Below are positions 43,120 to 61,638 of a stretch of DNA of 64,000 nucleotides, one piece after another. The notes under the pieces are model-generated. The model was not told the origin of the DNA, did no database searches, and saw nothing but the letters and a program-made list of their open reading frames with translations. This DNA comes from Mesotoga prima MesG1.Ag.4.2 (lineage in GTDB: Bacteria > Thermotogota > Thermotogae > Petrotogales > Kosmotogaceae): assembly GCF_000147715.2 (NCBI RefSeq), contig NC_017934.1, positions 124,001 to 188,000 on the forward strand, read 5' to 3'. Positions within the stretch are counted from its first letter, which is position 1. Every line of letters begins with the position of its first letter. Both the position numbers and the translations under genes were made by a program.

Positions 43120-45276
43120 TTGAGGATCGGAATTGCCGGACTCGGAACAGTCGGGTCATGTGTCTACGCGATTCTTTCGGATAAGGGAGACGAGATCGAA
43201 AAGAGGTCGGGGAGAAGATGCGTCGTCTCCAAGGTCATTACGAGAACTCACAGCAAGTACGAGAAGCTGGGAATTCCTTCCGATCTGATCGCGGAGGATT
43301 TCGAGGATCTTATTATAAACAGCGATATAGTTGTTGAGACGATTGGCGGGACTGAAGCCGCCAGAAAGCTGGTAAAGCAGTCTCTCGAGCTGAATAGAAC
43401 GGTCGTGACGGCCAACAAGATGCTTATTTCGGAATTCGGCAACGAATTCATGAACAGTTCTCCGATCAAGAGCCTATTCTTCGAAGCGGCCGTCGGTGGG
43501 GGTATTCCTATCATCTCTCTTCTGGAGGACTATCTCATCTTCCATGGAATCAAACGCATTCGGGGTATTCTGAATGGGACAACGAATTTCATACTTTCCG
43601 AGATGCAGAAGGGAATTGACTACGCTTCGGCTCTGAAGATTGCTCAGGAAAAGGGTTATGCGGAAGCCGATCCATCGAGCGATGTGAAAGGCTTCGATGC
43701 TGCTTATAAGCTGTCGGTGCTCACCGGCGTCAAAACAGGCGTCTTCCCCGGTATTTCCACGATTGAAACAAAGGGCATCGAAGGAATAGAGAAAAGCGAT
43801 CTTGAGAGAGCAGCGACCGCAGGGAAAAAGCTCAAATTGATCGGGACAATCGACTTCGAAAGGGAGAGGGCTTCAGTTCAGCCGCAGGAAGTTGAAAGAG
43901 ACGATCCACTGTGGAGCGTAGACGGTGTCGAGAACGCCATAGAAGTTGAAACGGATCTTTCTGGAAGATTTCTTCTCAGGGGCGAGGGCGCGGGAGCCCA
44001 GCCGACCGCAACGGCTATCATCTCTGACATTCTGAGGGCGTCGAGATATGCGGAGAAGCAGAGCAATTCCGTTGTGATTATGAAATTTGGCGGGACTTCA
44101 GTTGACACGCCGGAGAAGATAAAGGATGTGGCGCAGCGGGTCCAGCGAAAGGTTCTGAGCGGCGTCAAACCCGTTCTCGTTGTATCGGCAATGGGTTTTG
44201 AAACAGATACGCTTCACGAACTTGCCCGAGAGATTTCAGACAAGCCAAACGGAAGAGAGATGGACATGCTTCTGGCGACAGGCGAGCAGAAGTCGATAGC
44301 CCTTGTAGCGATGGCGATCCAAGAGCTTGGAATGAAATCGATCTCCCTTTCCGGTAATCAGGCGAGGATACAGACAGATTCGAACTTCTCGAACGCGAGA
44401 ATCGTCGGGATAGATGCCGACCTTATAAACAGATATCTGAAGAACGGCTACGTTCCGGTTGTTGCAGGCTTCCAGGGGTCCACATTCTCCGGAGAGATCA
44501 CGACACTCGGCAGGGGAGGATCGGATCTGACCGCCGTCGTTCTTGCAAAGGCGCTGGGATCGCAGCTGTGCGAAATATATAAGGATGTGGACGGCGTCTA
44601 TTCGGCCGACCCGAGGATAGTTCCCAATGCAAGGCCGATAAAAGAGATATCTTGGGAAGAGATGATAGAGCTTTCGAAGCAGGGTGCTCAGGTTCTTCAA
44701 AGCAGAGCATCGGAATTCGTAAGGAAGTATGATATAAAGGTGCTTGTGAAAAACGCGCACACCAATGCTAGAGGCACGCTTATATGGAGGGGATCAAAAG
44801 TGGAACAGCCTATTGTGAGAGCAGTAACTTCGGATCAGGACATCGTGAAAGTCGTTCTGCAAGAGGTACCTGACAGACCGGGAATAGCGGCGAGAGTTCT
44901 GAAGACCCTTGCCGAGCAGAATGTCAACATCGACATGATAATACAGAGTATGAGAAGCGGGGATTACAACACGATGGCCTTCACTATCCAGGCAAGCGAT
45001 CTCGACAAGCTGAAGCAAGACGTACTTAAGTCGAGGAGCGAAGCCAGAGAAATCACCGTCGAAGGCGCCATCGCAAAACTCTCTATCGTCGGAGTAAATC
45101 TTACTGCCACTCCCGCTATCGCGGCGACGCTCTTCGAGACCCTTGCTAACGAGGGCATCAACATAGACATGATCAGCGCAAGCAACAGCAGGATTTCCGT
45201 CGTAATAGACAACAAGAAAGTGAGTCTTGCCGTTAACGCCATTCACAGCGCCTTCAGTCTGGAGGAGATCATATGA
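43120..45276 (+). CDS. Bifunctional homoserine dehydrogenase-aspartate kinase, copy A
   Basis: This is a 718-aa fusion. Homoserine dehydrogenase comes first: NAD(P) motif GLGTVGS (7-13), ANKMLIS, GGGIPII and RIRGILNGTTNFILSEM. Aspartate kinase follows from about 318: VVIMKFGGTSVDTPEKI, TLGRGGSDLTAVVLAKAL and EIYKDVDGVYSADPRI. It ends with two ACT domains (about 575 and 655) that normally bind threonine or lysine. The order is the reverse of E. coli ThrA and, as I recall, equals Thermotoga. It catalyses the first and third steps from aspartate to threonine. The start is TTG here but ATG in copy B. It overlaps thrC by 4 bp. Confidence 0.94.
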   Translation: MRIGIAGLGTVGSCVYAILSDKGDEIEKRSGRRCVVSKVITRTHSKYEKLGIPSDLIAEDFEDLIINSDIVVETIGGTEAARKLVKQSLELNRTVVTANKMLISEFGNEFMNSSPIKSLFFEAAVGGGIPIISLLEDYLIFHGIKRIRGILNGTTNFILSEMQKGIDYASALKIAQEKGYAEADPSSDVKGFDAAYKLSVLTGVKTGVFPGISTIETKGIEGIEKSDLERAATAGKKLKLIGTIDFERERASVQPQEVERDDPLWSVDGVENAIEVETDLSGRFLLRGEGAGAQPTATAIISDILRASRYAEKQSNSVVIMKFGGTSVDTPEKIKDVAQRVQRKVLSGVKPVLVVSAMGFETDTLHELAREISDKPNGREMDMLLATGEQKSIALVAMAIQELGMKSISLSGNQARIQTDSNFSNARIVGIDADLINRYLKNGYVPVVAGFQGSTFSGEITTLGRGGSDLTAVVLAKALGSQLCEIYKDVDGVYSADPRIVPNARPIKEISWEEMIELSKQGAQVLQSRASEFVRKYDIKVLVKNAHTNARGTLIWRGSKVEQPIVRAVTSDQDIVKVVLQEVPDRPGIAARVLKTLAEQNVNIDMIIQSMRSGDYNTMAFTIQASDLDKLKQDVLKSRSEAREITVEGAIAKLSIVGVNLTATPAIAATLFETLANEGINIDMISASNSRISVVIDNKKVSLAVNAIHSAFSLEEII

Positions 45277-46319
45277 AGGGAGTCATAGAGAGTTATGAGA
45301 AGTTCCTGCCTATAACACCGAAGACTCCAAAAATAACGCTTCTAGAAGGGAACACTCCCTTGATCTACCTTGAGAACATAAGCAAACAGTACGGGGTGAA
45401 AGTCTATGTGAAGTATGAGGGCGCAAATCCGACGGGCTCCTTCAAAGACAGGGGGATGGTCCTTGCAATTGCAAAAGCGATCGAAGAAGGCTCAAGAGCG
45501 GTTATCTGCGCCTCGACAGGGAACACCTCTGCCTCTGCGGCGGCGTACTCCGCCCGGACCGGCCTGAAATCGATAATTCTAATTCCCGAGGGTAAGATCG
45601 CGATAGGGAAGCTAGCGCAGGCAATGATCTACGGGGCAAAGGTAATCCAGATAGACGGGAATTTCGATAACTGCCTTGAACTGGCCAAGAAGATCTCTGA
45701 GAACTATCCCGTCACGCTCGTGAACAGTCTAAATCCTTACAGACTAGAAGGTCAGAAAACGGCCGCCTTCGAGATCATAGATGTTTTGGGACGTGCCCCG
45801 GACTATCACTTCATCCCGGTGGGAAACGCGGGCAACATTTCCGCCTACTGGATGGGCTACAGGGAGTATCGTGAGAAGGGACTGTCGGAATCCCAGCCCA
45901 GAATGATGGGCTTTCAGGCAGAGGGAGCGGCCCCTATCGTATACGATAGAGTTTTCGAGCATCCCGAGACCATCGCGACCGCTATTAGAATCGGTAATCC
46001 CGCAAGCTGGAAAAAGGCAGTTGCTGCAAGAGACGAGTCGGGAGGCGTTATCGAGGCACTGACAGACGAAGAGATCCTTCACGCTCAGAAACTCCTGGCC
46101 AGCGCGGAGGGCGTCTTCTGCGAACCAGCCTCTGCGGCTTCCTTCGGCGGATTTCTCAGGAAGGCGCGAGAGGGTCTTTTTGAAGCAAGTGATATTGCCG
46201 TCTGCACACTTACCGGAAACGGACTTAAGGATCCCGATGCAGTCTTGAAGTCTGTAGACAGGCCTCTTGTGGTTGAGAATGATCTCGAGGTAGTTCTGAA
46301 AGAGGCGGGCTTGAAGTGA
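45273..46319 (+). CDS. thrC: Threonine synthase, copy A
   Basis: This 348-aa PLP enzyme converts O-phosphohomoserine to threonine. The PLP lysine is K58 in NPTGSFKDRGM; the phosphate loop is ASTGNTSASAAAYSARTGL and HFIPVGNAGNISAYWMGY; the C-terminal motif is CTLTGNGLKDPD. It is the short bacterial class. The ATG overlaps the hom-ask stop (ATGA) and the end overlaps thrB (GTGA), so the three genes are translationally coupled. Copy B (55331-56377) is about 90% identical by eye. Confidence 0.94.
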   Translation: MKGVIESYEKFLPITPKTPKITLLEGNTPLIYLENISKQYGVKVYVKYEGANPTGSFKDRGMVLAIAKAIEEGSRAVICASTGNTSASAAAYSARTGLKSIILIPEGKIAIGKLAQAMIYGAKVIQIDGNFDNCLELAKKISENYPVTLVNSLNPYRLEGQKTAAFEIIDVLGRAPDYHFIPVGNAGNISAYWMGYREYREKGLSESQPRMMGFQAEGAAPIVYDRVFEHPETIATAIRIGNPASWKKAVAARDESGGVIEALTDEEILHAQKLLASAEGVFCEPASAASFGGFLRKAREGLFEASDIAVCTLTGNGLKDPDAVLKSVDRPLVVENDLEVVLKEAGLK

Positions 46320-47164
46320 GACTGAAGGCGCCTGCCACGACGGCAAATATGGGGAGCGGATTCGACGTCGTCGGAATGGCGTTGAAGCTTCATAATACAG
46401 TTCAGTTCGAAAAGGCGAACCGCTTTAAGGTGCATTCTATCGGCAGGTATGGTCTGGAGATAGGGGATGCCGCGGAGACCTTCGGAAATGCTATAGAGAG
46501 ATTTGAGAAGCTCACCGGAAAAAAAGTTCCGGCCCTTCAGATTATTCAGGAGTGCGAGATACCGCCGGCCCGCGGGCTTGGCTCGAGCGCCGCTGCGATC
46601 GCCTCCGCGCTGTTCATCTCGAACATAATGACCGGAGGAAGGATTCCCACTGATGCGCTTCTCGAAATCGGAACGGAGATCGAAGGCCATCCCGATAACA
46701 TCGTCCCGTGTATGGTTGGCGGCCTCACCGTATCCTATTATGACGGTTCGAGGCTAGACTACGAGAAGTTCGAAATGCCCGATCACAGATTGACCTTTCT
46801 TGTGCCTGAGTTCAAGCTTTCTACAGAGGCAATGAGAAAGGCGCTTCCCGATTCGATTCCCTTCAAAGATGCTCTGGGGAACATAAAGAATGTCTCTCAG
46901 TTCATTTCCAAAGCCTCCAGGGGCGATTTCGCGGGAGCATTGAAATACACAAAAGACTTTATCCACCAGTCTTACAGGATAGACAGCGATCCCAGAATGA
47001 AGGAACTTGTCGATAGGACAGAAGAAAGGAATCCGGGTTACTGGTTTGTCAGCGGTTCGGGATCGTCCATCTGTTGCGATCTCGAAGATACCGGAGGCCT
47101 CCCGTATCTCGAGGCCGTAATTAGAACTTCACCGGCGAACGAACCCTTCATAGTCGAAATGTAA
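46316..47164 (+). CDS. thrB: Homoserine kinase, copy A
   Basis: This 282-aa GHMP kinase makes O-phosphohomoserine for ThrC. N-terminal APATTANMGSGFDVVGMAL; ATP-binding motif PPARGLGSSAAAIASALF at 83-100; EGHPDNIVPCMVGG; C-terminal VSGSGSSICCDLED. GTG start coupled to thrC. It is the least conserved pair of the duplication (roughly 80% identity with copy B). The stop is 24 bp from the convergent AsnB-like gene, with no clear terminator. Confidence 0.93.
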   Translation: MRLKAPATTANMGSGFDVVGMALKLHNTVQFEKANRFKVHSIGRYGLEIGDAAETFGNAIERFEKLTGKKVPALQIIQECEIPPARGLGSSAAAIASALFISNIMTGGRIPTDALLEIGTEIEGHPDNIVPCMVGGLTVSYYDGSRLDYEKFEMPDHRLTFLVPEFKLSTEAMRKALPDSIPFKDALGNIKNVSQFISKASRGDFAGALKYTKDFIHQSYRIDSDPRMKELVDRTEERNPGYWFVSGSGSSICCDLEDTGGLPYLEAVIRTSPANEPFIVEM

Positions 47165-47187
47165 GATAGTTAAAGACGTGAGCCGGG

Positions 47188-48612
47188 TCAACTTCTGTAA
47201 ACAGTGTCCGCGGCTCCTCTGCAGGGGAACTGCTCGTCGAATATCCGGTAGTACAGAAGCTCCTCTTTGGACCTGATTCCGTTGTTTTGCCTTTCGCGTT
47301 CGAATTCTGAGTCGCTTATAGCCTCCTCGGCGTACTCCTTCATGATATGAGACGATCCCGACCCGACGCTGAACTTGCTCTTTTTCCGCCAGACTACGCT
47401 TTCAGGAAGATCGTTTTCGAAGGCCTTGCGAAGAATCCATTTCTCAGTCTTTTCAGGCCCGTGGATCTTCCAGTCCACTGGAATCGAGAAGGCAAGATCA
47501 ACTACATTTGGGTCCATGAAGGGAACATCGAATTCGATCCCGAAAGCAAGAGCCATCCTGTCGTTTCGCTGGAAGCCCGAAAGATAGCCGTTTTTCGTTA
47601 TTCTCAAGGACTCTTCATCCACGGATTCTGCAGAGGGAAGCTCCTTCATATACTCGTAGCCGGCGAAGAGCTCATCGGCTCCTTCTCCCATCAGGACGAA
47701 AGAACTGTCTTCCTCTGCGGCCATCTTCGATACTATATAATTCGGTATCGCACTCCTCACAAGGGGAGGATCGAACGACTCGAGATGGTAAATTACGTCC
47801 GGAAGGACTTCGAGCATCTCTTTGAAATCGTAAGTGTATTCCCTGTGATCCGTGCCTAAATACCGGGAGACCTCCTTGGCGAACGCCGGATCTTTCCCCT
47901 CTTCGCTTCCTACGGTAAACGTCTTCAAAGAACCGTTCAGTTTGCTTGCAACGGCAGCTATACAGCTACTGTCCAGCCCTCCGCTGAGGAATACTATCGG
48001 CTCGGATTTGACCGCCGTCATTCTGTTGTCGACAGCCCTTTCGAGAGAAGTCCTGAGACGTTTCGCCGCCTCTTCTTCACTTTTTACTTGTCTTTCGGTC
48101 AACAGGTCTTCAAGTGAGGAGTACTCACTGAAGCCTTCGTTAGAAGAGAAAAAGTGGCCGGGCGGAAAGACCTGTACATGACTGCAGAAGGGAGTAAGGG
48201 CCTTCAGTTCCGAAGCGAAGGCGATTCCACCGTTACAGCGCCCGTAGTAAAGAGGCTTCAGGCCCAGAGGATCCCGGGCGACAAAGGTTTCGTCATCTGT
48301 ATCTATAGCGAAAGCGAAAGAACCATCCAGCTCGTTTAAAAATCCCGAACGGTTTTCCTTGTAAAGCTCGAGAATCCTTCGCGGCCAGACCTCCCCGGGG
48401 AAGTTTCTGAGGATACCGTCGAAGACAACGCTTTCCCTCGTGCCTTCGAAAACTATCATGTTTTCGTCAAAGGCATTGCTTACCACCGCTCCCATGCTCG
48501 CCTCTCCCTGGGTTTTTAGAACTCTCGTTTTGCTTCCCCTGTGTCTCAAGTAAGAAAGAGAGCCTTCTATCATTTTTCTCTCAGGTTTAAGGGTGACAAC
48601 AATTCCACTCAT
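47188..48612 (-). CDS. AsnB-like amidoligase without glutaminase nucleophile, copy A
   Basis: This 474-aa protein has the AsnB architecture: an Ntn-type N-domain and an ATP-pyrophosphatase C-domain. The C-domain is intact: FLSGGLDSSCIAA at 208-220, MGEGADELFAGYEY, and WRKKSKFSVGSGSS with the conserved Lys. The N-domain starts MSGIVV, so Cys2, the glutaminase nucleophile, is Ser, and the glutamine-binding NGEIYN is DGILRN (65-70). Glutamine hydrolysis should be impossible. Beta-lactam and carbapenam synthetases share this state. It may use ammonia or an internal amine. Start supported by GGAGG. Convergent with thrB, divergent from the opine-dehydrogenase gene. Confidence 0.88.
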   Translation of the reverse strand: MSGIVVTLKPERKMIEGSLSYLRHRGSKTRVLKTQGEASMGAVVSNAFDENMIVFEGTRESVVFDGILRNFPGEVWPRRILELYKENRSGFLNELDGSFAFAIDTDDETFVARDPLGLKPLYYGRCNGGIAFASELKALTPFCSHVQVFPPGHFFSSNEGFSEYSSLEDLLTERQVKSEEEAAKRLRTSLERAVDNRMTAVKSEPIVFLSGGLDSSCIAAVASKLNGSLKTFTVGSEEGKDPAFAKEVSRYLGTDHREYTYDFKEMLEVLPDVIYHLESFDPPLVRSAIPNYIVSKMAAEEDSSFVLMGEGADELFAGYEYMKELPSAESVDEESLRITKNGYLSGFQRNDRMALAFGIEFDVPFMDPNVVDLAFSIPVDWKIHGPEKTEKWILRKAFENDLPESVVWRKKSKFSVGSGSSHIMKEYAEEAISDSEFERERQNNGIRSKEELLYYRIFDEQFPCRGAADTVYRS

Positions 48613-48804: not shown

Positions 48805-48894
48805 GAAAATACAAGTAAGATAAAGCAAGGGAATTCTTGTTCTCTGTTATTTCCCATATTTTTATTTCTGGATGGGGGTCTAAGGAGGTGTTGT

Positions 48895-49974
48895 ATGAAG
48901 ATAGCTGTTATTGGTGCGGGAAATGGTGGACAGGCCCTTTCTGCCGTTCTAGCCATGAGGGGCCACGATGTCTCGCTATACAACAGAAGTCAGAAACGAA
49001 TCTCACCATTACTCTTAGAAAGAAAGATAAGAGTCGAAGGCGAGTCAGAGGGCAAAGCAAAGCTTAGATACGTTGGTACAGATATGAAGAAGGCGATAGA
49101 GGGTGCCGAAGCTATCATGGTTGTTGTGCCGGCCTTTGCTCATGCAAAAATCGCCGAAAAACTGGCCGAATGTATCGGCGAAGGTCAGATAGTTGTTTTG
49201 AACCCAGGGCGAACGGGCGGAGCGCTGGAATTCGACAAGATCTTCAGAGAAAAGGGAGTTAGAGAAAAGGCCGTGATCGCCGAGGCTCAGACCTTCGTCT
49301 TTGCTTCAAGAATTTCGGGCCCTGGAATGGTGAGAATATTCAGGATTAAGAATGCCGTTCCTATTTCAGTGCTTCCCTCAAAGGATAACGAGTCCGTATT
49401 TCCAATCATCAGCGAGATCATGCCCGAGTTCACGCTGGCAAAAAACGTTCTCTACACTAGCTTCAACAATATTGGCGCAGTCTTTCATCCCGGCGCGATT
49501 CTCATGAACGCCGGCTGGATTGAGACGAAGCATGGAGACTTCCAATTCTATCTTGAGGGGATTAGCCCATCGGTTGCGAGAGTTCTGGAGGCTCTGGACG
49601 AAGAGCGCTGCGAAGTAACAAGGAAACTTGGCGTGGAAGCCATGGGTGCGAAGGAGTGGCTTGATTACGCCTATGACGTAAAGGGTGAAGATCTCTATGC
49701 GGCCATCCATAGCAACGAAGGCTACAGGGGAATCATGGCGCCTATAAGTATTGAGAACAGGTACATTATGGAAGACGTGCCTATGAGTCTGGTTCCAATG
49801 AGCTGCTTTGGAAGAGAACTTGGAGTGGATACGAGAGTCATGGATTCGATAATAAGCATAGCCGGGGCAGTAATGGGGAGAGACTTCTGGAAGGAAGGAA
49901 GAAATCTTGTGAGCCTCGGCGTCGACGAAATGTCCGTAGAAGAATTGACCAGGTATGTCGAGGAAGGGACCTGA
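48895..49974 (+). CDS. Octopine/nopaline dehydrogenase-family enzyme, copy A
   Basis: This is a 359-aa protein. The N-terminal Rossmann fold has GAGNGGQALSAVLAMRGHDVS (7-27). The C-terminal octopine-DH domain has TSFNNIGAVFHPGAILMNAG with the catalytic His near 198, and EGYRGIMAPISIENRYIMED. Relatives reductively join an amino acid's amine to a 2-oxo acid, or run in reverse; others reduce ketopantoate-like substrates. Substrate unknown. AGGAGG precedes the ATG. The B12 protein gene begins 1 bp after its stop, so they are one operon. Confidence 0.87.
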   Translation: MKIAVIGAGNGGQALSAVLAMRGHDVSLYNRSQKRISPLLLERKIRVEGESEGKAKLRYVGTDMKKAIEGAEAIMVVVPAFAHAKIAEKLAECIGEGQIVVLNPGRTGGALEFDKIFREKGVREKAVIAEAQTFVFASRISGPGMVRIFRIKNAVPISVLPSKDNESVFPIISEIMPEFTLAKNVLYTSFNNIGAVFHPGAILMNAGWIETKHGDFQFYLEGISPSVARVLEALDEERCEVTRKLGVEAMGAKEWLDYAYDVKGEDLYAAIHSNEGYRGIMAPISIENRYIMEDVPMSLVPMSCFGRELGVDTRVMDSIISIAGAVMGRDFWKEGRNLVSLGVDEMSVEELTRYVEEGT

Positions 49975-49975
49975 T

Positions 49976-51595
49976 ATGAAGATACTAGCAGGGGCCATTG
50001 GAAGCGATATTCACACAGCGGGAATTCTTAACTTCTTGAACTTGGCGCGTAATGAAGGCTATGAAACGATCTACATTGGAAGCGTGATAGGCATTGACAA
50101 ACTGCTAGACAGCATAGAAGAGGCCTCGCCGGACATAGTGGCCGTAAGCTACAGGCTGGGAAAAGAGTCCTGCGAGCAGCTCCTCCGAGAACTGAAAGTC
50201 TCGCTGGAAAACAGAGGAATAGAAAAGAGACTGATCTTCGGTGGAACGGTCGAGACGGCCGAGGTGGCTGAAAAGAGCGGTCTCTTCGAGAAGGTCTTTG
50301 ACGGCAGCGAGATGCCGGAGGAAGTCGTGATGTTTCTCAGGGGCAAGACGGACGAAAAGGGAGAGGTCGACTATCCTCAGACACTTCTCGAAAGAATCGC
50401 CTCCAAAAAGCCATATCCGTTGATAAGACATCACATAGGGCTTGAGACGGTCGATGCAACAGAGGAAGCCGTCAGAAAGCTTGCTGAATCGGGCTTGCTG
50501 GATATCATCTCACTGGCTCCGGACCAGAACTGCCAGCAGTGGTTCTTTCAACAGGAGAATATGATCTCCTCGGAAGACGGGGCGGGGGGCGCGCCTTTCA
50601 GAAAACGAGAGGATTTTGAAAGGATGTATGCTGCCAGCAGGACCGGTAACTATCCATTGATGAGGTGTTATTCTGGAACGAGAGACCTCCTGAAATTCTC
50701 CCTTCTCTTAAAAGAAACCTTGAACAACGCGTGGGCCGCGATACCCATTACCTGGTACTCTCAGCTTGATGGGAGATCAGATCGTGAACTTCTGGAGGCA
50801 ATAAGAGACAATCAGGCCGCAATCGCCTGGAATGGTGGAAAGGGAATCCCGGTTGAGATAAACGAGGCCCATCAGTGGGCGCTCAGATACTGCCACGCTG
50901 CCGTAGAGGTTGCTACTGCCTATCTTGCAGCGATGGCTGCCAAGCGACTCGGTGTGCAGGTCTACGTGGCTCAGTACATGTTCAACACGCCCCCGGGGAT
51001 CTCACCGAAGATGGATTTGGCGAAGGCGCTGGCGAAGAAGGAACTTATAGAGTCTCTTGAGGGTGACGATTTCACCGTTGTCACGATGGTAAGACCCGGG
51101 CTCATGTCGCTTCCGGCAGACCCCGATATGGCGAGGGGCCAGCTTGTTTCATCTGTCTACACTGCCATGAATATTGACCCGGACATAGTTCACGTGGTTG
51201 CATATTGCGAGGCGACGAGAAGAGCAACCGACGTCGAAATCATCGAAAGTGTGAAGATGGCGAAACAGGCGATAAATGAAGCGATCAAGGGCCTTCCTGA
51301 CTTCAGACAGGACAAGGAGATTCATGAACACAAACAGTATTTGAAGAGTGAATGTAAAGTGATAATTGAGGCCATTGAAAAAATAAAGACGGGTGAGCTC
51401 ACCTCGCCCGAGACAATATACACGGCCGTAAAGACGGGAATTCTTGATGCGCCTGGACTCAGCAAAATGTCGGTCGCAAAAGGCGCCGTCAGGGCCGCGA
51501 TAATCGACGGCCAGTCCTGCGCGGTCGACGAGGAAGGAAAGAAGATAGACGAAAACGATAGACTTACCGCTTTGTCAGGTGCAAATAAGGATTGA
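49976..51595 (+). CDS. Fused glutamate-mutase-like B12 protein, copy A
   Basis: This is a 539-aa protein. Residues 1-125 form a B12-binding domain very like glutamate mutase S: GAIGSDIHTAG with the D-x-H-x-x-G motif (His13 as lower ligand), AVSYRLG in place of S-x-L, and LIFGGTVE. The remainder resembles the GlmE TIM barrel, best seen at the end: SECKVIIEAIEKIKTGEL and KTGILDAPGLSKMSVAKGAVR. S and E parts are thus one chain with the B12 part first. The region aligned to the GlmE arginine claw reads LAPDQNCQQW rather than TRQNRY, so the substrate probably differs from glutamate. The ATG at 49976 is chosen over one at 49955 inside the previous gene. Confidence 0.82.
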   Translation: MKILAGAIGSDIHTAGILNFLNLARNEGYETIYIGSVIGIDKLLDSIEEASPDIVAVSYRLGKESCEQLLRELKVSLENRGIEKRLIFGGTVETAEVAEKSGLFEKVFDGSEMPEEVVMFLRGKTDEKGEVDYPQTLLERIASKKPYPLIRHHIGLETVDATEEAVRKLAESGLLDIISLAPDQNCQQWFFQQENMISSEDGAGGAPFRKREDFERMYAASRTGNYPLMRCYSGTRDLLKFSLLLKETLNNAWAAIPITWYSQLDGRSDRELLEAIRDNQAAIAWNGGKGIPVEINEAHQWALRYCHAAVEVATAYLAAMAAKRLGVQVYVAQYMFNTPPGISPKMDLAKALAKKELIESLEGDDFTVVTMVRPGLMSLPADPDMARGQLVSSVYTAMNIDPDIVHVVAYCEATRRATDVEIIESVKMAKQAINEAIKGLPDFRQDKEIHEHKQYLKSECKVIIEAIEKIKTGELTSPETIYTAVKTGILDAPGLSKMSVAKGAVRAAIIDGQSCAVDEEGKKIDENDRLTALSGANKD

Positions 51596-52053: not shown

Positions 52054-52236
52054 GTAGGGGCGAACGGCTGTTCGCCCGAAAGAGAACCGTGCAAAAGGAG
52101 GGACCTCACATGCGGAGAACCGGGTCTGGGTTTTTCGGTTCTAGCTGAATAGACGGTGACATACGGTTAGGAACTCGTCAGTCCACTATTCGAAATGCTA
52201 CGGGATGATAATTCCAGACGATTATGCAGTTCTTTT
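52054..52236 (+). repeat. 183-bp module between two left palindromes, copy 1
   Basis: It starts with GGGCGAACGGCTGTTCGCCC and runs to the next identical palindrome. It contains GGTTCTAGC, GAATAGACGGTGACATACGG and GAACTCGTCAGTCCACTATT. An almost identical module is at 61838-62020, in both cases directly upstream of a RAYT element. Confidence 0.8.
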
Positions 52237-52551
52237 GTAGGGGCGAACGGCTGTTCGCCCGCGATAGCTTGACAAAATGTTCGCATCGCGGCAATGTTTG
52301 TTGGGAGCCATGGTTGATGGCAGAGTAATCTTGAGTAGCATTGGCAAAATCGTTTATGAACATGTCATCCGCAATGAGAAAGAACTGAATCGAATTCGTG
52401 AGTACATTGAGAATAACCCCTTGAGATGGCAGATAGACAGAGAGAATCCCGACAGAAAGACAAGTCAGGTTCTTTCAACAATTGAAGAGGACGATCTCTA
52501 TCCTTGGGAAGATTGATCCTTAATAGCGGGCGTGCCGCCGCACGCCCCTAC
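52237..52551 (+). mobile_element. RAYT deletion derivative B (non-autonomous REP element)
   Basis: This 315-bp unit has the same two deletions as 41521-41836: the 5' junction GCCCGCGATAG|CTTGACAA and the internal junction joining IGKIV to YEHVIRNEKELNRIREYIEN. Intact palindromes lie at both ends (52241-52260; 52526-52551). The coding remnant lacks the histidine motif and cannot be an active transposase. Confidence 0.88.
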
Positions 52552-53177: not shown

Positions 53178-55334
53178 ATGAGAATCGGGATTGCCGGACT
53201 TGGCACTGTCGGGTCCTGTGTCTATGCAATTCTTAAAGACAAGGGAGATGAGATCGAGAAGAGATCTGGGAGAAAGTGTATCGTCTCCAAGGTAATTACG
53301 AGAACTCACAGCAAGTACGACAAGCTGGGAATTCCATCCGATCTAGTCGCGGAGGATTTCGAGGATCTTATTATCAACAGCGATATAGTTGTAGAAACGA
53401 TTGGCGGGAGCGAAGCCGCAAGAAAGCTTGTAAAGCAGTCTCTCGAGCTGAATAGAACGGTCGTGACGGCCAACAAAATGCTGATTTCGGAATTCGGTAA
53501 CGAATTCACAAACAGCTCTCCGATAAAGAGCCTATTCTTCGAAGCGGCCGTCGGCGGGGGTATTCCTATCATCTCTCTTCTCGAGGACTATCTCATCTTT
53601 CATGGGATCAAACGTATTCGGGGTATTCTGAATGGCACAACGAATTTCATACTTTCCGAGATGCAGAAGGGAATGGACTACGCTTCGGCTCTGAAGATTG
53701 CTCAGGAAAAGGGTTATGCGGAAGCCGATCCAACGAGCGATGTGAAGGGCTACGATGCCGCTTATAAGCTGTCGGTGCTCACCGGCGTCAAAACGGGCGT
53801 CTTCCCCGGTATTTCCACGATTGAAACAAAGGGCATCGAAGGAATAGATAAAAGCGATCTTGAGAGAGCAGCAACCGCAGGGAAAAAGCTCAAATTGATC
53901 GGGACAATTGATTTCGAAAGAGAGGTAGCTTCAGTTCAGCCGCAGGAGATTGAAAGGAATGATCCTCTTTGGAGCGTAGATGGGGTTGAAAACGCCATAG
54001 AGGTCGAGACGGATCTCTCGGGAAGATTTATTCTCAGGGGAGAGGGGGCGGGAGCTCAACCAACTGCAACGGCGATCATTTCAGACATTCTCAGGGCATC
54101 GAGATACGCAGAGAAGCAGAGTAACTCAGTTGTGATAATGAAATTTGGTGGAACCTCAGTCGACTCGGCAGAGAAAATAAAGGATGTTGCGGAGAGGGTA
54201 CAGAAAAAGGTCCTTAGTGGTGTCAAGCCTGTGATAGTTGTGTCGGCTATGGGTGTTGAGACAGACAAACTTCATGAACTCGCGAAAGAGATATCCAGCA
54301 AACCGAACGGTAGAGAGATGGACATGCTTCTGGCAACAGGAGAGCAGAAGTCTATTGCCCTTGTTGCAATGGCGATTCAGGTGCTCGGGATGAAATCGAT
54401 TTCACTTTCGGGCAATCAGGCGAGAATTCAGACCGATTCGAATTTTTCGAATGCAAGAATCGTCGGAATAGACGCCGATCTTATAAACAGATACCTATCA
54501 AACGGGTACGTTCCAGTTGTGGCCGGCTTCCAGGGATCCACCTACACCGGCGAGATTACGACTCTTGGCAGAGGAGGCTCGGATCTTACGGCCGTTGTGT
54601 TGGCCAAAGCGCTGGGATCACAACTCTGCGAGATTTACAAGGATGTAGACGGTGTCTATTCGGCCGATCCTAGGATAGTTCAGAAGGCCAGACCGATCAA
54701 AGAGATTTCATGGGAAGAGATGATAGAGCTTTCAAAGCAGGGTGCTCAGGTGCTTCAAAGCAGAGCATCTGAATTTGCCAGAAAGTACGATATTAAAGTG
54801 CTTGTGAAAAACGCACACTCAAATGCTAGAGGCACGCTAATATGGAGGGGATCGAAAGTGGAACAGCCTATTGTTAGAGCAGTAACTTCTGATGACGAGA
54901 TTGTGAAAGTAGTTCTGCAAGAAGTTCCTGATAGACCGGGAATAGCTGCGAGAGTTCTGAAAACTCTTGCAGAGCAGAACGTGAATATTGACATGATAAT
55001 ACAGAGCATGAGGAGCGGGGAGTTTAACACAATGGCCTTCACTATACACGGGAGCGATCTCTCAAAGCTGAAACAGGATATCCTTAAGACAAGAAGCGAG
55101 GCCAAAGAAATAACTGTGGAAAGTTCAATCGCAAAGCTTTCTATTGTCGGAGTCAACTTGACTGCTACTCCGGCAATCGCTGCGACTCTCTTTGAGACTC
55201 TTGCCAATGAAGGAATCAATATCGATATGATCAGCGCCAGCAACAGCAGAATATCGGTTGTTATCGACAGCAATATGGTTCATCTGGCGGTAAACGCTAT
55301 CCACAGTGCTTTCAGCTTGGAGGAGATTGTATGA
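53178..55334 (+). CDS. Bifunctional homoserine dehydrogenase-aspartate kinase, copy B
   Basis: 718 aa, same length and domain order as copy A and about 92% identical by eye. All catalytic motifs are kept: GLGTVGS, NGTTNFILSEMQKG, KFGGTSVDSAEKI, TTLGRGGSDLTAV, and both ACT domains. Nucleotide identity with copy A is very high from about 53290 to 53935 and clearly lower afterwards, suggesting gene conversion. Synonymous sites are more AT-rich than in copy A. Coupled to thrC by ATGA overlap. Confidence 0.94.
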   Translation: MRIGIAGLGTVGSCVYAILKDKGDEIEKRSGRKCIVSKVITRTHSKYDKLGIPSDLVAEDFEDLIINSDIVVETIGGSEAARKLVKQSLELNRTVVTANKMLISEFGNEFTNSSPIKSLFFEAAVGGGIPIISLLEDYLIFHGIKRIRGILNGTTNFILSEMQKGMDYASALKIAQEKGYAEADPTSDVKGYDAAYKLSVLTGVKTGVFPGISTIETKGIEGIDKSDLERAATAGKKLKLIGTIDFEREVASVQPQEIERNDPLWSVDGVENAIEVETDLSGRFILRGEGAGAQPTATAIISDILRASRYAEKQSNSVVIMKFGGTSVDSAEKIKDVAERVQKKVLSGVKPVIVVSAMGVETDKLHELAKEISSKPNGREMDMLLATGEQKSIALVAMAIQVLGMKSISLSGNQARIQTDSNFSNARIVGIDADLINRYLSNGYVPVVAGFQGSTYTGEITTLGRGGSDLTAVVLAKALGSQLCEIYKDVDGVYSADPRIVQKARPIKEISWEEMIELSKQGAQVLQSRASEFARKYDIKVLVKNAHSNARGTLIWRGSKVEQPIVRAVTSDDEIVKVVLQEVPDRPGIAARVLKTLAEQNVNIDMIIQSMRSGEFNTMAFTIHGSDLSKLKQDILKTRSEAKEITVESSIAKLSIVGVNLTATPAIAATLFETLANEGINIDMISASNSRISVVIDSNMVHLAVNAIHSAFSLEEIV

Positions 55335-56377
55335 GAGGTGTAATAGAGACCTATGAGAAGTACCTGCCTGTAACGCAGAAGACCCCGAGAGTCTCACTCC
55401 TTGAAGGTGATACTCCTCTAATACATCTGGAAAAGGCGAGCAAGAAGTTCGGTTTAAATGTTTATGCTAAGTACGAAGGAGCTAATCCTACTGGATCATT
55501 CAAAGACAGGGGAATGGTCCTCGCGATAGCCAAAGCGATAGAAGAGGGCTCAAAGGCTGTTATTTGTGCCTCCACTGGAAACACTTCGGCCTCTGCAGCC
55601 GCTTACTCTGCAAGGACCGGTTTGAAGTCGATAATCTTGATTCCGGAGGGAAAGATCGCTCTAGGCAAGCTTGCTCAGGCGATGATCTATGGCGCAAAGG
55701 TAATTCAGATAGATGGGAATTTCGATGAGTGCCTTGAACTAGCGAAGAGTATATCGGAGAATTACCCCGTTACTCTCGTTAACAGTCTCAACCCTTACAG
55801 GCTTGAGGGGCAGAAAACGGCTGCCTTCGAAATAGTAGACGTTCTGGGAAGGGCTCCCGATTATCACTTCATACCGGTAGGAAATGCCGGTAATATTACT
55901 GCCTACTGGATGGGGTATCGAGAGTATCACGAAAGTGGTCTTTCAGACGGCCTGCCCAAGATGATGGGCTTCCAGGCCGAAGGGGCAGCACCGATAGTAT
56001 ATGACAGAGTCTTCGATAACCCCGAGACGATAGCTACCGCGATAAGAATTGGTAACCCTGCGAGTTGGAAGAAAGCAGTTGCTGCAAGAGACGAATCGGA
56101 AGGAGTGATCGAGGCTTTGACCGACGAAGAAATCCTCGAGGCGCAGAGACTTCTTGCGGCTTCTGAAGGTGTCTTCTGTGAGCCGGCTTCTGCAGCTTCT
56201 TTCGGCGGGTTTCTGAGAAAAGCCGAAGAGGGTCTGTTCTGTTCAAGTGATCTCGTTGTCTGTACCCTGACAGGTAATGGACTTAAAGATCCCGACGCCG
56301 TTCTCAAGTCCGTAGATAAGCCCATCGTAGTAGAGAACAGTCTGGATGCTGTCCTGAAAGAGGCGGGCCTGAAATGA
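55331..56377 (+). CDS. thrC: Threonine synthase, copy B
   Basis: 348 aa, no length change from copy A. PLP lysine in NPTGSFKDRGM; STGNTSASAAAYSARTGLKS; HFIPVGNAGNITAYWMGY. Differences are spread and mostly conservative (KKFGLNVYAKY versus KQYGVKVYVKY), with no loss of catalytic residues, so both copies appear functional. The end overlaps thrB by ATGA. Confidence 0.94.
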   Translation: MRGVIETYEKYLPVTQKTPRVSLLEGDTPLIHLEKASKKFGLNVYAKYEGANPTGSFKDRGMVLAIAKAIEEGSKAVICASTGNTSASAAAYSARTGLKSIILIPEGKIALGKLAQAMIYGAKVIQIDGNFDECLELAKSISENYPVTLVNSLNPYRLEGQKTAAFEIVDVLGRAPDYHFIPVGNAGNITAYWMGYREYHESGLSDGLPKMMGFQAEGAAPIVYDRVFDNPETIATAIRIGNPASWKKAVAARDESEGVIEALTDEEILEAQRLLAASEGVFCEPASAASFGGFLRKAEEGLFCSSDLVVCTLTGNGLKDPDAVLKSVDKPIVVENSLDAVLKEAGLK

Positions 56378-57222
56378 GGCTGAGGGCACCGGCCACAACG
56401 GCAAATATGGGAAGCGGATTCGATGTTGTCGGTATGGCTTTGAAGCTCCATAATGTCGTGCAATTTGAGAAGGCAGATAGGTTGAAAGTCTTGTGCATAG
56501 GAAGATATGGTCAGGAGATCGAGAACTCCGAAGGACTATTCGAAAAGGCGATAAAGGGATTCGAGAAAGTTACTGGCAAAGCCGTTCCTGGCGTTCAGAT
56601 AATCCAGGAGTGCAATATTCCACCGGCACGCGGCCTGGGTTCAAGTGCCGCAGCGATAGCCTCAGCTCTGTTTATTGCAAACATCGTGACCGGCGGGAGT
56701 ATTCCCATGAAGACACTTCTCCAGATTGGAACGGAGATTGAAGGTCATCCCGACAACATCGTTCCCTGTATGCTTGGAGGGCTTGTGGTTTCCTACTATG
56801 ACGGCGAAAAACTTGATTATGAGAAATTCGAAATGACTGATCAAAGGCTGACATTTCTTGTGCCCGAATTCAAGCTTTCCACCGGTGAGATGAGAAAGGC
56901 GCTTCCTGAATCGGTTCCCTTCAGGGACGCGATAAGCAACCTGAAGAATGTTTCTCAGTTCATTTCGAAAATCGCCAAAGGCAATCTGATCGAAGCCTTC
57001 AGATATACTCACGACAGTATCCACCAGATCTACAGAATAAACAGCGACCCCAGAATGAAAGAGCTGATTAGCTGCATTGAAGGAAGGAACACGAATTACT
57101 GGTTTGTGAGCGGTTCTGGCTCGTCGGTCTGCTGCGATCTCGAAGATGTCGCAGGGCTTCCTTACCTGGAAGCCGTAATAAGAACGTCTCCCGCGAACGA
57201 GCCATTCATTATCGAATTATGA
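56374..57222 (+). CDS. thrB: Homoserine kinase, copy B
   Basis: 282 aa, ATG start (copy A uses GTG). GHMP motif PPARGLGSSAAAIASALFIA; GHPDNIVPCMLGG; VSGSGSSVCCDLED. It is the most diverged pair in the duplication, with changes concentrated in the segment after GRYG (QEIENSEGLFEKAIKG versus LEIGDAAETFGNAIER) and in the C-terminal helix. All catalytic motifs are kept. Confidence 0.93.
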   Translation: MRLRAPATTANMGSGFDVVGMALKLHNVVQFEKADRLKVLCIGRYGQEIENSEGLFEKAIKGFEKVTGKAVPGVQIIQECNIPPARGLGSSAAAIASALFIANIVTGGSIPMKTLLQIGTEIEGHPDNIVPCMLGGLVVSYYDGEKLDYEKFEMTDQRLTFLVPEFKLSTGEMRKALPESVPFRDAISNLKNVSQFISKIAKGNLIEAFRYTHDSIHQIYRINSDPRMKELISCIEGRNTNYWFVSGSGSSVCCDLEDVAGLPYLEAVIRTSPANEPFIIEL

Positions 57223-57246
57223 GCTTTCCAAAAACAACTGCAATAA

Positions 57247-58674
57247 TCAGCTTCTGTAAACTGTTTTCGCGGCGCATCCGGAAGGGAACAAGTCGTCGAA
57301 GATTCGGTAATAAAGAAGTTCTTCCTTCGACCTAATTCCTTTCTCTCGCCTTTCAGTCTCGAATTCGGAATCGCTTATTTTCTCTTCAGCATATTCCTTC
57401 ATTAGGTGCGATGAGCCTGAGCCGACGCTGAACTTACTCTTTTTTCGCCATACGACACTTTTGGGAAGTTCGCTCTCGAATGCCTTCCTGAGAATCCACT
57501 TCTCGGTCTTCTCAGGCCCGTGGATTTTCCAATCGACGGGAATTGAGAATGCGAGATTCACAACTGAAGGGTCCATGAACGGAACGTCGAACTCGATCCC
57601 AAATGCTAGGGACATCCTGTCATTGCGCTGAAAGCCCGAACGATAACCGTTTCTCGTTATCCGCAAAGATTCTTCATCTATAGATTCTGAAGATGGTAGT
57701 TCTTTCATATACTCGTAACCGGCAAAGAGTTCGTCTGCGCCTTCTCCCATGAAGACGAAGGAACTACCTTCTTCTGCAGCCATTTTCGCCACAATGTAGT
57801 TTGGAATTGCACTCCTTACTAAGGGAGGATCGAACGACTCAAGGTGGTAGATGACTTCCGGTAGAGTCCTAAGCATCTCTTTGAAATCATAAGTATATTC
57901 ACTGTGGTCTGTCCCGAGATACTCGGAGACTTCCCTGGCGAATTTTGGGTCTTTTCCATCCCCGCTTCCAACGGTGAATGTTCTAAGCGATCCATTAAGA
58001 GAACTCGCCACAGCCGCTATACAGCTGCTATCGAGCCCACCGCTAAGAAATACGATAGGGTCTGAGTTGATCGAAGAGATTCTATTCTCGATGGCCTCTC
58101 CAAGAGATGTTCGAAGCAGCTCCGTTGCTTCATACTCATTTCTCATGACGGGTTCCTCCGTAAGCAGGTCTTCAAGAGAAGAATATCTCTCAAAGCCCAC
58201 GAGAGAGGAATAATAATGACCCGGCGGGAAGATTTTTACTTCGTTGCAGAAGGGCGCCAGAGCCTTCATTTCTGATGTGCATACTATGTATCCATTGATA
58301 TAGCCGTAGTACAAAGGCTTTAGACCCAGAGGGTCACGCGCGATAAGAGTCTCTTTGTCTGTATAAATTGCAAAGGCGAATGAACCGTCCAGCTCCTTCA
58401 GAAACCCCCTGCCACTTTCCTTATACAATTTCATTATCTTCTCTGGCCAAGCTGTGTCCGGATGATTCCTGAGAAAACCGTCGAAGACAACGTACTCGCC
58501 ATCTCCTTCGAAAATGCTCATTTTGCTGTCGAAGGCCCGGCTGACAACTGCGCCCATGCCTATCTTCTGTCCTGTTTCCAGAACTGTTGTTCTGCTCCCT
58601 CTATGTCCAAGGAGAGACAGTGAGGACTTTGCCATTTCTCTTGTGCCTCCATAGAAGACAGCAATTCCGCTCAT
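57247..58674 (-). CDS. AsnB-like amidoligase without glutaminase nucleophile, copy B
   Basis: 475 aa from the ATG at 58674 (MSGIAVFYGG), which has GGAGG 8 bp upstream; five more in-frame codons upstream lack a site. As in copy A, residue 2 is Ser and the glutamine motif reads DGFLRN. The ATP-PPase motifs FLSGGLDSSCIAAVAS, MGEGADELFAGYEYMKELPS and RKKSKFSVGSGSSHLMKEYA are intact. The Cys-to-Ser change in two diverged copies shows it is a fixed family property, not an error. Confidence 0.88.
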   Translation of the reverse strand: MSGIAVFYGGTREMAKSSLSLLGHRGSRTTVLETGQKIGMGAVVSRAFDSKMSIFEGDGEYVVFDGFLRNHPDTAWPEKIMKLYKESGRGFLKELDGSFAFAIYTDKETLIARDPLGLKPLYYGYINGYIVCTSEMKALAPFCNEVKIFPPGHYYSSLVGFERYSSLEDLLTEEPVMRNEYEATELLRTSLGEAIENRISSINSDPIVFLSGGLDSSCIAAVASSLNGSLRTFTVGSGDGKDPKFAREVSEYLGTDHSEYTYDFKEMLRTLPEVIYHLESFDPPLVRSAIPNYIVAKMAAEEGSSFVFMGEGADELFAGYEYMKELPSSESIDEESLRITRNGYRSGFQRNDRMSLAFGIEFDVPFMDPSVVNLAFSIPVDWKIHGPEKTEKWILRKAFESELPKSVVWRKKSKFSVGSGSSHLMKEYAEEKISDSEFETERREKGIRSKEELLYYRIFDDLFPSGCAAKTVYRS

Positions 58675-58835
58675 TCTGAATACCTCCATCCTTTTTCATC
58701 GTGAAGTCGGATTTGAACCAATTTGATTAAATCCTCAGATTCCTCATTAAACTATTATAACATGGTGCCAAATCTCCAAACTTAACTTCTGCAGCCAATT
58801 TTGTGCATTCGTTGCATATCGCGCGAGACATCGCC

Positions 58836-58958: not shown

Positions 58959-60038
58959 ATGAAGATAGCAGTAGTCGGTGCAGGCAATGGTGGGCAGGCT
59001 CTTTCGGCAGTTCTTGCGATGAGAGGGCACGATGTCTCGCTTTATAACAGGAGCCAGAAGAGGATCTCACCTATAATGACTGACCGCAAGATCAGGGTTG
59101 AAGGCGAGTCGAGCGGCAAAGCTAAATTGAGATACGTAGGAACGGATATGAAGAAGGCAGTAGATGGTGTGGAGGCAATCATGGTGGTTGTGCCTGCCTT
59201 TGCTCATGCTCAGATTGCCGCCGAACTGGCCGATTGCGTCACGGAAGGGCAAATCATAGTTCTTAATCCGGGCCGCACAGGAGGGGCGCTGGAGTTTGAC
59301 AAGATATTCAGGGAGAAGGGAGCTAGAGAGAAAGTGGTAATTGCCGAGGCCCAAACCTTCGTCTTCGCTTCACGTATTTCCGGCCCAGGGATGGTAAGAA
59401 TATTCAGAATCAAGAATGCAGTTCCTGTTTCCGTGCTTCCTTCAAAGGACAACGAGGCAATTCTACCGATAATCAACGAGATAATGCCAGAGTTCACACT
59501 TGCAAAGAACGTGCTGTACACTAGCTTCAACAATATTGGTGCCGTCTTTCATCCCGGCGCAATATTGATGAACGCGGGTTGGATAGAGACGAAGCACGGA
59601 GATTTCCAGTTCTACCTCGAAGGTATAAGCCCCTCTGTTGCAAGAGTTTTGGAGGAGCTCGACAAAGAACGTTGCGAAGTCACGAGCAAACTGGGCGTCG
59701 TCGCAATGGGTGCCAGAGAGTGGCTTGATTACGCGTATGACGTCAAAGGTGACGATCTCTATACGGCCATTCACAGCAATGAGGGCTACCGAGGGATCAT
59801 GGCCCCGATAAGCATAGAGAACAGATACATAATGGAAGATGTTCCTATGAGCCTGGTTCCTATGAGCTGCTTTGGAAGGAAACTTGGAGTGGAGACAAGA
59901 ATAATCGATTCGGTAATAAACATAGCCGGAGCAGTAATTGGAAGGGACTTCTGGAAAGAAGGTCGAACACTGGAGAACCTCGGTATAGACAGACTATCTG
60001 TAGAAGATCTACTCAAGTACGTCGAGGAAGGGAGCTAA
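58959..60038 (+). CDS. Octopine/nopaline dehydrogenase-family enzyme, copy B
   Basis: 359 aa, about 90% identical to copy A. The GAGNGGQALSAVLAMRGHD Rossmann motif and NNIGAVFHPGAILMNAGWIE catalytic segment are unchanged. Start preceded by GAGGAGGTGG. It is followed after 1 bp by the B12 protein gene, as in block A. Confidence 0.87.
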   Translation: MKIAVVGAGNGGQALSAVLAMRGHDVSLYNRSQKRISPIMTDRKIRVEGESSGKAKLRYVGTDMKKAVDGVEAIMVVVPAFAHAQIAAELADCVTEGQIIVLNPGRTGGALEFDKIFREKGAREKVVIAEAQTFVFASRISGPGMVRIFRIKNAVPVSVLPSKDNEAILPIINEIMPEFTLAKNVLYTSFNNIGAVFHPGAILMNAGWIETKHGDFQFYLEGISPSVARVLEELDKERCEVTSKLGVVAMGAREWLDYAYDVKGDDLYTAIHSNEGYRGIMAPISIENRYIMEDVPMSLVPMSCFGRKLGVETRIIDSVINIAGAVIGRDFWKEGRTLENLGIDRLSVEDLLKYVEEGS

Positions 60039-60039
60039 G

Positions 60040-61638
60040 ATGAAGATCTTAGCGGGAGCCATCGGAAGCGACATACATACAGCAGGCATTCTCAATTTCC
60101 TTAATCTCGCCGGTAAAGAAGGCTACGAGACTATTTACATTGGAAGCGTGATAGGTATAGACAAACTGTTGGATAGCATAGAAGAGGCTTCTCCGGACAT
60201 CGTTGCGGTGAGCTACAGGCTGGGAAAAGAGTCTTGCGAAGGTCTTCTCAGGGAGCTTAAGATGTCGCTGGAGAACAGGGGTATTGAGAAAAGATTGATT
60301 TTCGGCGGAACGGTTGAGACCGCGGAAATAGCAGAGAGGAGCGGCCTTTTCGAGAAGGTCTTCGATGGTAGCGAAATGCCGGAAGAAGTCGTTATGTTCC
60401 TCAGGGGCAGGACCGATGCAAAAGGAGAGGTTGATTACCCTCAGACACTTCTCGAAAGGATAACTGCTAAGAAGCCCTATCCGTTGATAAGGCATCATAT
60501 AGGCTTGGAGACCGTTGAAGCAACGGAAGGGGCAGTAAGGAATCTCGCTGAATCCGGCTTACTAGACATTATCTCGTTAGCGCCGGATCAGAACTGCCAG
60601 CAATGGTTCTTCCAGCAGGAGAACATGATCTCTTCTGAAGACGGTGCCGGTGGTGCCCCCTTCAGAACAAGAGAGGATTTTGAAAGAATGTATAAGGCTA
60701 GCCGGATAGGTAACTATCCCTTGATGCGCTGTTACTCAGGAACGAGAGATCTTCTCAAATTCTCGCTTCTTTTCAGAGAAACAATAAACAACGCTTGGGC
60801 TGCCGTTCCTCTGACCTGGTACTCGCAGCTTGACGGCAGGTCGGATCGTGAATTGCTCGAAGCGATAAGAGACAATCAGGGAGCGATCGCGTGGAACGGA
60901 GGAAGTGGAATCCCGGTAGAGATAAACGAGGCTCATCAGTGGGCGTTAAGATACTGCCATGCTTCGATAGAAGTGACTACAGCGTATCTAGCAGCCCTCT
61001 CCGCCAAACGGCTCGGCGTAAAAGTGTACGTTGCACAATACATGTTTAACACGCCGCCGGGAATCTCTCCAAGAATGGATCTGGCAAAGGCGCTTGCAAA
61101 AAAAGAGTTGATCGAATCCTTAAAGGATGAGAACTTCACACCGGTTACGATGGTAAGGCCAGGATTGATGTCTCTTCCAGCCGACCCGGATATGGCTAGG
61201 GGCCAGCTCGTTTCATCTGTGTACACTGCCATGAAAATTGACCCGGAGATCGTTCATGTCGTTGCATACTGCGAGGCGACAAGAAGAGCCTCCGATATGG
61301 AAATAATAGAAAGCGTCAAGATGGCTAAACAGGCAATAAACGAGGCAATCAAAGGACTTCCCGACTTCAAGCAGGATAAAGTGATTCAAGATCACAAGGA
61401 ATACCTAAAGAGTGAATCTGCTACGATAATAGAGGCAATGGAGAAGATCAAAACAGGTGAACTTACATCGTCCGAGACTATTTACGCGGCTATCAAACTG
61501 GGCATCCTCGATGCTCCGGGTTTGAGCAAGATGTCAGTCGCCAAAGGCGCAGTTCGAACGGCCATTATCGATGGGCAGTCCTGCGCAGTCGACGAGGAAG
61601 GGAAACGGATAGATGAGAAGGAAAGACTCTCACTGTAA
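60040..61638 (+). CDS. Fused glutamate-mutase-like B12 protein, copy B
   Basis: 532 aa, about 92% identical to copy A but seven residues shorter at the C-terminus (ends KERLSL). GAIGSDIHTAGILNFLNLAG with the His13 cobalamin ligand, VAVSYRLGKES, FGGTVETAEI; LAPDQNCQQWFFQQENMISS; HQWALRYCHASIEVTTAYLA; KLGILDAPGLSKMSVAKGAV. Retention of every B12 and barrel motif argues for activity. The sequence after the stop is the AGCCAGTCTGCTAACG repeat module. Confidence 0.82.
   Translation: MKILAGAIGSDIHTAGILNFLNLAGKEGYETIYIGSVIGIDKLLDSIEEASPDIVAVSYRLGKESCEGLLRELKMSLENRGIEKRLIFGGTVETAEIAERSGLFEKVFDGSEMPEEVVMFLRGRTDAKGEVDYPQTLLERITAKKPYPLIRHHIGLETVEATEGAVRNLAESGLLDIISLAPDQNCQQWFFQQENMISSEDGAGGAPFRTREDFERMYKASRIGNYPLMRCYSGTRDLLKFSLLFRETINNAWAAVPLTWYSQLDGRSDRELLEAIRDNQGAIAWNGGSGIPVEINEAHQWALRYCHASIEVTTAYLAALSAKRLGVKVYVAQYMFNTPPGISPRMDLAKALAKKELIESLKDENFTPVTMVRPGLMSLPADPDMARGQLVSSVYTAMKIDPEIVHVVAYCEATRRASDMEIIESVKMAKQAINEAIKGLPDFKQDKVIQDHKEYLKSESATIIEAMEKIKTGELTSSETIYAAIKLGILDAPGLSKMSVAKGAVRTAIIDGQSCAVDEEGKRIDEKERLSL

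Follow-up and report, generated by a model that had tools for sequence, protein, structure and literature searches.

A putative single-chain adenosylcobalamin-dependent mutase strictly paired with an opine dehydrogenase in Mesotoga and other Thermotogota

The window analysed here, a 64,000-nucleotide stretch of the Mesotoga prima genome, carries the gene for a single-chain protein related to the adenosylcobalamin (AdoCbl)-dependent mutases, which we call Mut, preceded immediately by the gene for an opine dehydrogenase (OpDH). Both follow a set of threonine biosynthetic genes and a divergently transcribed gene for an asparagine-synthetase-like protein (Table 1). The mut reading frame is intact. 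A longer reading frame could start at an ATG at position 49955, but the second copy of the gene does without such a start and begins at the equivalent MKILAG; a purine-rich, Shine-Dalgarno-like stretch for mut is found within the 3' end of the OpDH reading frame.

Table 1. Genes and domains of the two block copies in the window (coordinates in window numbering)
Feature	Position	Strand	Basis
Homoserine dehydrogenase-aspartokinase fusion (ThrA-like)	43120..45276	+	Pfam, NCBIfam
Threonine synthase (ThrC)	45273..46319	+	TIGR00260
Homoserine kinase (ThrB)	46316..47164	+	TIGR00191
Asparagine-synthetase-like protein, divergently transcribed; MSGI for MCGI	47188..48612	-	ORF, Pfam, NCBIfam, alignment
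OpDH, opine dehydrogenase partner, 359 aa, 1 nt upstream of Mut; R106/G194, His198-Asp294	48895..49974	+	Pfam, AF2, VIA-align, conservation
Mut, single-chain AdoCbl mutase (predicted), 539 aa	49976..51595	+	ORF, Pfam, family alignment, AF2, VIA-align
Mut, N-terminal B12-binding Rossmann domain, residues 1-125	49976..50350	+	Pfam PF02310, family counts, AF2 secondary structure
Mut, TIM-barrel catalytic domain, residues 132-531	50369..51568	+	VIA-align to 1cb7_B GlmE, Pfam PF06368
Second copy of thr genes (+) and AsnB-like gene (-)	53178..58689		ORFs, DNA comparison
Second OpDH copy, 87% identical	58959..60038	+	sequence comparison
Second Mut copy, 532 aa, 89% identical	60040..61638	+	sequence comparison

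The entire thr-AsnB-OpDH-Mut block is present twice (43120-51595 and 53178-61638), in 8.6-kb copies that share 78% DNA identity. Another Mesotoga species (G029) has a locus 99.2% identical to copy 2, and copy 1 is 90% identical to a contig of a Kosmotogaceae metagenome-assembled genome (L035). Judged by these sequences, the two copies can be considered a xenologous pair and not the outcome of a recent duplication. Since copy 2 is so much closer to the locus of the other Mesotoga species than to its neighbour, it looks as if it had been acquired horizontally beside a resident copy 1. REP-like repeat pairs (GTAGGGGCGAACGGCTGTTCGC, none expected by chance) stand before, between and after the block copies; together with an IS200-like Y1 transposase gene (RAYT-like) they occupy positions 41234-41542, 52054-52258, 61838-62042 and 62008-62667, with the transposase gene at the right edge overlapping the last REP-like pair.

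The first-pass annotation had described Mut as a one-chain, glutamate-mutase-like enzyme with its B12 domain first, and the reading frame, the order of the Pfam domains and the AlphaFold2 (AF2) fold all bear this out. B12-binding (residues 2-103, E 2.5e-9) and Met_asp_mut_E (PF06368; residues 309-508, E 1.1e-8) both score above their gathering scores and are the sole Pfam families above cutoff. The motif GAIGSDIHTAG was correctly read and lies at residues 6-16, with His13 and Gly16 in its G-S-D-I-H-T-A-G part; S-Y-R-L lies at residues 58-61, of which R60 and L61 are invariant. A single chain of about 540 aa is found in 51/51 aligned family members. Measured against the NCBIfam equivalogs, Mut remains far below the cutoffs for MutE (22 vs 390 bits) and MutS (24-31 vs 110-136 bits), and the same is true of its matches to OraE and KamE; the B12 domain scores best against OraE. 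No characterised fused mutase scored highly in our Pfam/NCBIfam, profile and fold searches.

An AF2 model built from 51 family members (pLDDT 93, pTM 0.89) places the barrel of Mut closest to glutamate mutase GlmE among solved folds (VIA-align: Z 33.4 over 373 residues, rmsd 2.8, 18% identity), followed by lysine 5,6-aminomutase (Z 31.4), ornithine aminomutase (Z 28.6) and methylmalonyl-CoA mutase (MCM; about 22). Foldseek and VIA-align thus match Mut to GlmE, KamD, OraE and MCM, and the superfamily fold is present in both domains. Because the model matches GlmE across the whole barrel, residues 132-531, the relation between the two is not a matter of chance; the likeness to GlmE seen earlier consequently stands, whereas its restriction to the C-terminal third does not. 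With GlmES of Clostridium cochlearium (PDB 1cb7, 6h9e), Mut has in common the TIM barrel, the B12 Rossmann domain, the His and Gly of the DxHxxG motif and the equivalent of Glu330. It differs in being one chain with the B12 domain first, whereas E and S are separate subunits in GlmES, in the replacement of R66 and R100 at the aligned positions, and in its partner, which is an opine dehydrogenase in place of methylaspartate ammonia-lyase. The B12-first order has a precedent in the fused isobutyryl-CoA mutase IcmF, whose chain aligns from residue 27 onward with residue 1 of the Mut model, and which likewise continues from an N-terminal B12 domain into a mutase barrel; IcmF is, however, much larger, has an intervening G domain, acts on acyl-CoA and matches the Mut barrel with a Z of about 19-20 only.

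Conservation was assessed in the 51 family members, to which three divergent paralogues of about 30% identity were added. The family has 61 invariant columns, many of them in the barrel and upheld across phyla; H13, G16, R60, L61, R140, R151, H153, Q184, Q187, R230, Y232, G234, T235, D265, R267, E294, H299, R304, H406 and E412 are invariant in the paralogues as well. The DxHxxG motif is complete in the Mut protein of the window. Across the family its His and Gly are present in 51/51 members and its Asp in 17/51, with Cys at the Asp position in the other 34/51. In OraE the PLP-binding lysine follows the Co-binding His by 11 residues; at this site the family has Ala in 50/51 members and Cys in 1/51.

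In GlmE, R66, R149 and E171 hold the glycyl part of the substrate, and R100 and Y177 the acrylate part (PMC10947579). We related these positions to Mut, with the GlmE of locus L128 as the reference (the GlmL and methylaspartate ammonia-lyase genes beside it were named from sequence), by a global profile alignment that is weak and sequence-based, without superposition on the GlmE coordinates; local similarity covers residues 379-527 alone (355-527 with the paralogues), and the remaining equivalences come from the global alignment. On this alignment, R66 is replaced by His153 and R100 by Gln187, both invariant (51/51), and R149 falls, depending on the register, on Tyr232 or on Arg230 two residues before it, so that two of the three arginines of the R66/R100/R149 claw are missing from their aligned positions. 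The sequence DQNCQQ, which the first-pass annotation had noticed in place of the claw segment, indeed aligns (residues 183-188) with D96-Q101 of GlmE. Neither the profile alignment nor family conservation reveals a Glu in Mut near the E171 region, and E330 corresponds, on the same weak alignment, to the invariant E412; in GlmE, Glu330 contacts the adenosyl ribose. Matching of strand-end landmarks puts the basic residues R151, R230 and H406, on three strands, two residues ahead of the corresponding GlmE position, where they would lie one layer deeper in the barrel. Collectively, the substrate site of Mut is predicted to differ from that of GlmE.

OpDH belongs to PF02317 (E 6e-51) and possesses the GxGxxG motif. 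Its predicted structure (pLDDT 96) superimposes on N-(1-D-carboxylethyl)-L-norvaline dehydrogenase of Arthrobacter (1bg6) with Z 48.9 over 347 residues, rmsd 1.8 and 38% identity. Among the OpDH partners of Mut, H198 is present in 50/50 and D294 in 46/50, the other four having Glu, and the active-site Trp, W255, in 50/50; hence the fold, the nucleotide-binding motif, the His-Asp dyad and the Trp of the opine dehydrogenases are all in place, and fold and dyad are those of the Arthrobacter 1C enzyme. Telek et al. have described six hot-spring opine dehydrogenases (mODHs), about 40% identical to the Arthrobacter enzyme, which favour L-aspartate, also take glutamate, and use pyruvate as the partner; swapping two residues, Arg for A111 and Gly for N198, exchanged the preference between aspartate and phenylalanine (PMC10787698). 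OpDH has the same Arg/Gly pair, the comparison with the mODHs being made at those two positions alone: A111 aligns with R106 and N198 with G194. R106 is found in 50/50 partners and G194 in 48/50; none of 11 homologues from the same phylum that are not partners of Mut combines the two. Given its 1bg6-like fold, the dyad and an Arg/Gly signature tested in homologues, OpDH is most likely an opine dehydrogenase that joins acidic amino acids and pyruvate, and an acidic substrate or product of Mut consequently remains likely. For the Arthrobacter 1C enzyme and the mODHs, in contrast, no mutase partner has been described.

Mut and OpDH are found together with great strictness. In 103 Thermotogota genomes, searched separately for each protein, both occur in the identical 65 genomes and both are absent from the other 38 (Fisher 4e-29, with genomes taken as independent of ancestry). 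The two genes lie together on one strand in 65/65 cases, separated in G056 by a single ligase gene. Mut-negative genomes inside Mut-positive genera (G024, G060, G004, G008) lack both genes, indicating that Mut and OpDH were lost jointly. In a second phylum, which its gene content suggests to be Chloroflexota, Mut is present in 15/301 genomes; an OpDH clade with at least 60% identity to a partner from the same phylum occurs in 14 of the 301, all of them (14/14) Mut-positive, and in the fifteenth Mut genome a divergent OpDH homologue overlaps the mut gene. Other phyla contributed Mut in 4 of about 95 sampled genomes, a scan of genome contigs with a single Mut protein gave matches in Thermotogota alone, and a search for plasmid-borne relatives returned none. 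The constant neighbour at 54 Mut loci is the opine dehydrogenase. This pairing shows a functional coupling of the two proteins and is silent on the order of their steps; as Mut stands beside OpDH in every genome examined, they probably act in a joint, hitherto undescribed pathway. Our literature search retrieved no paper containing both "glutamate mutase" and "opine dehydrogenase".

The divergent Mut of the fifteenth genome (L106:4233-8027), a neighbour of the OpDH homologue, forms a 1264-aa fusion with a MutL/GlmL-type reactivase (PF13941, E 5e-80). A second Mut subfamily of about 634 aa, 30% identical (L061:6925-8829; L068, 633 aa), has an insertion in or after the B12 domain and again has OpDH and ATP-grasp genes beside it, to which L061 adds a fused aminotransferase-GNAT gene. 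The thr operon can be rejected as a general context of Mut, as thr genes adjoin the pair in some Mesotoga alone; elsewhere OpDH and Mut stand by themselves, or with a ligase or an AsnB homologue. The same M. prima genome encodes an ornithine degradation operon with 2,4-diaminopentanoate dehydrogenase, OrtB and OraE (L127; G000:C1:1312000-1331000). A PF06368 search of 198 relatives detected canonical GlmE in G179 alone, outside Thermotogota. The Mut-positive genome G085 (L181-L240) possesses a free-standing GlmL/MutL gene (39% to GlmL; at about 232 kb), near neither Mut nor OraE, whose product could serve either mutase.

The ligase is an ATP-grasp, D-Ala-D-Ala-ligase-like protein found beside the Mut-OpDH pair in 23/54 loci; it has a Dala_Dala_lig_C domain and scores below the NCBIfam Ddl cutoff (161 vs 243 bits). 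Counted at E 1e-56 or better, a cutoff set so as to exclude a second group of paralogues, it is present in 54/65 Mut-positive and 3/38 Mut-negative Thermotogota genomes. Mesotoga has it away from the pair, and some Mut-positive genera lack it. It adjoins a dihydropyrimidinase-like hydantoinase in L114, L115, L116, L118 and L124, all from one Thermotogota family, with an APS-kinase-like protein in between in three of them, and a carbon-nitrogen hydrolase in Mesotoga L108. The pair has an AsnB homologue as its neighbour in Kosmotogaceae and in the second phylum. The Kosmotogaceae proteins, including both in the window (the second at 57247-58689 (-)), have Ser for the N-terminal glutaminase Cys (MSGI/MSAI) and resemble glutaminase-less amide synthetases, whereas MCGI is intact in the second phylum. 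Since amide formation through an activated carboxylate is common to the ligase and the AsnB homologue, this context suggests a biosynthetic role. A supply of beta-alanine as the purpose of the module is weakened, since the Mut-positive G085 encodes PanD (38% identity, E 2e-17).

The fold, the domain order, the altered claw, the strict pairing and the specificity signature lend themselves to the following view: Mut is probably a PLP-independent AdoCbl carbon-skeleton mutase whose step immediately precedes or follows that of an acidic-amino-acid opine dehydrogenase. By its motif, the N-terminal domain would bind AdoCbl base-off/His-on through His13. By analogy with GlmE, binding of the substrate in the barrel would set off homolysis of the Co-C bond, the 5'-deoxyadenosyl radical would abstract a substrate hydrogen, and a PLP-independent 1,2-shift would follow as in glutamate mutase. 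OpDH, to judge from its fold, dyad and signature, would join an aspartate-type amino acid and pyruvate with NAD(P)H, or split the opine, so that the metabolite shared by both enzymes would be an acidic amino acid or a tricarboxylic opine. Synteny suggests that the ATP-grasp ligase then forms an amide in many lineages, and the AsnB homologue in Kosmotogaceae and the second phylum. The reactivase fusion in one divergent Mut counts for the mutase reading.

More tentatively, Mut might be a B12-dependent opine mutase, a possibility that we put forward without favouring it: the opine that OpDH makes from pyruvate and an acidic amino acid, such as aspartate, would be rearranged by Mut. As the CH3-CH(COO-)-N unit of an opine is isosteric with CH3-CH(COO-)-C of 3-methylaspartate, glutamate-mutase chemistry could turn the N-(1-carboxyethyl) group on the amino acid into N-(2-carboxyethyl) via an acrylate fragment and recombination; the third carboxylate would be held by the additional basic residues that are invariant in the barrel. 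In favour of an opine as the substrate of Mut are the strictness of the pairing, the three carboxylates of an aspartate opine and the large number of invariant basic residues; precedent speaks for an amino acid, and we know of no enzyme class of opine mutases.

Such an amino acid could be glutamate, with Mut as a one-chain glutamate mutase whose product, 3-methylaspartate, is captured by OpDH. GlmE is the closest fold, the OpDH signature fits an aspartate-like amino acid, and an engineered single-chain GlmES is active. Nevertheless, we consider this unlikely: the weak profile alignment puts Gln at R100 and His at R66 and leaves no Glu near E171, the MutE score is far below its cutoff, and no methylaspartate ammonia-lyase was recognised at the Mut loci, while it flanks the true GlmE in L128. 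The earlier proposal that the substrate is probably not glutamate is accordingly plausible at most, being favoured by the altered site and opposed by the acidic signature of OpDH. Still less likely is an analogue of PylB that would turn lysine or ornithine into a branched diamino acid for a ligase and a dehydrogenase. Mutase, ATP-grasp ligase and NAD(P) dehydrogenase do mirror the logic of PylB, PylC and PylD (PMC8318568), and loss of the distal claw arginine, on the weak profile alignment, fits a non-carboxylate side chain; PylB is, however, a radical SAM enzyme, which Mut by its Pfam domains is not, the signature of the adjacent OpDH points to acidic and not basic amino acids, the many invariant barrel arginines suggest an anionic ligand, and some Mut-positive genera lack the ligase. 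We regard a PLP- and AdoCbl-dependent aminomutase as highly improbable and reject this identity: lysine 5,6- and ornithine aminomutase are the second and third best folds (barrel Z 28-31), with a related B12 domain, C-terminal or separate in those enzymes, that in Mut scores best against OraE, but Mut lacks the PLP lysine, and a true OraE operon exists elsewhere in the genome. Equally improbable is that Mut binds cobalamin but catalyses no mutase reaction and, for example, regulates the neighbouring dehydrogenase; the loss of the Asp of the B12 motif in most members would fit such a role, but the invariant barrel columns and the MutL fusion oppose it.

Only a small number of AdoCbl radical mutases is known, each with a defined substrate. 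The Mut subfamily, present in 65/103 Thermotogota genomes and scattered through other phyla, has an invariant active site unlike that of GlmE. Since the substrate class of its obligate partner OpDH can be predicted, a short list of compounds can serve to search for a new radical reaction. At the same time, the pairing would provide a biological role for the aspartate-type opine dehydrogenases of hot springs, which have so far been characterised as biocatalysts alone.
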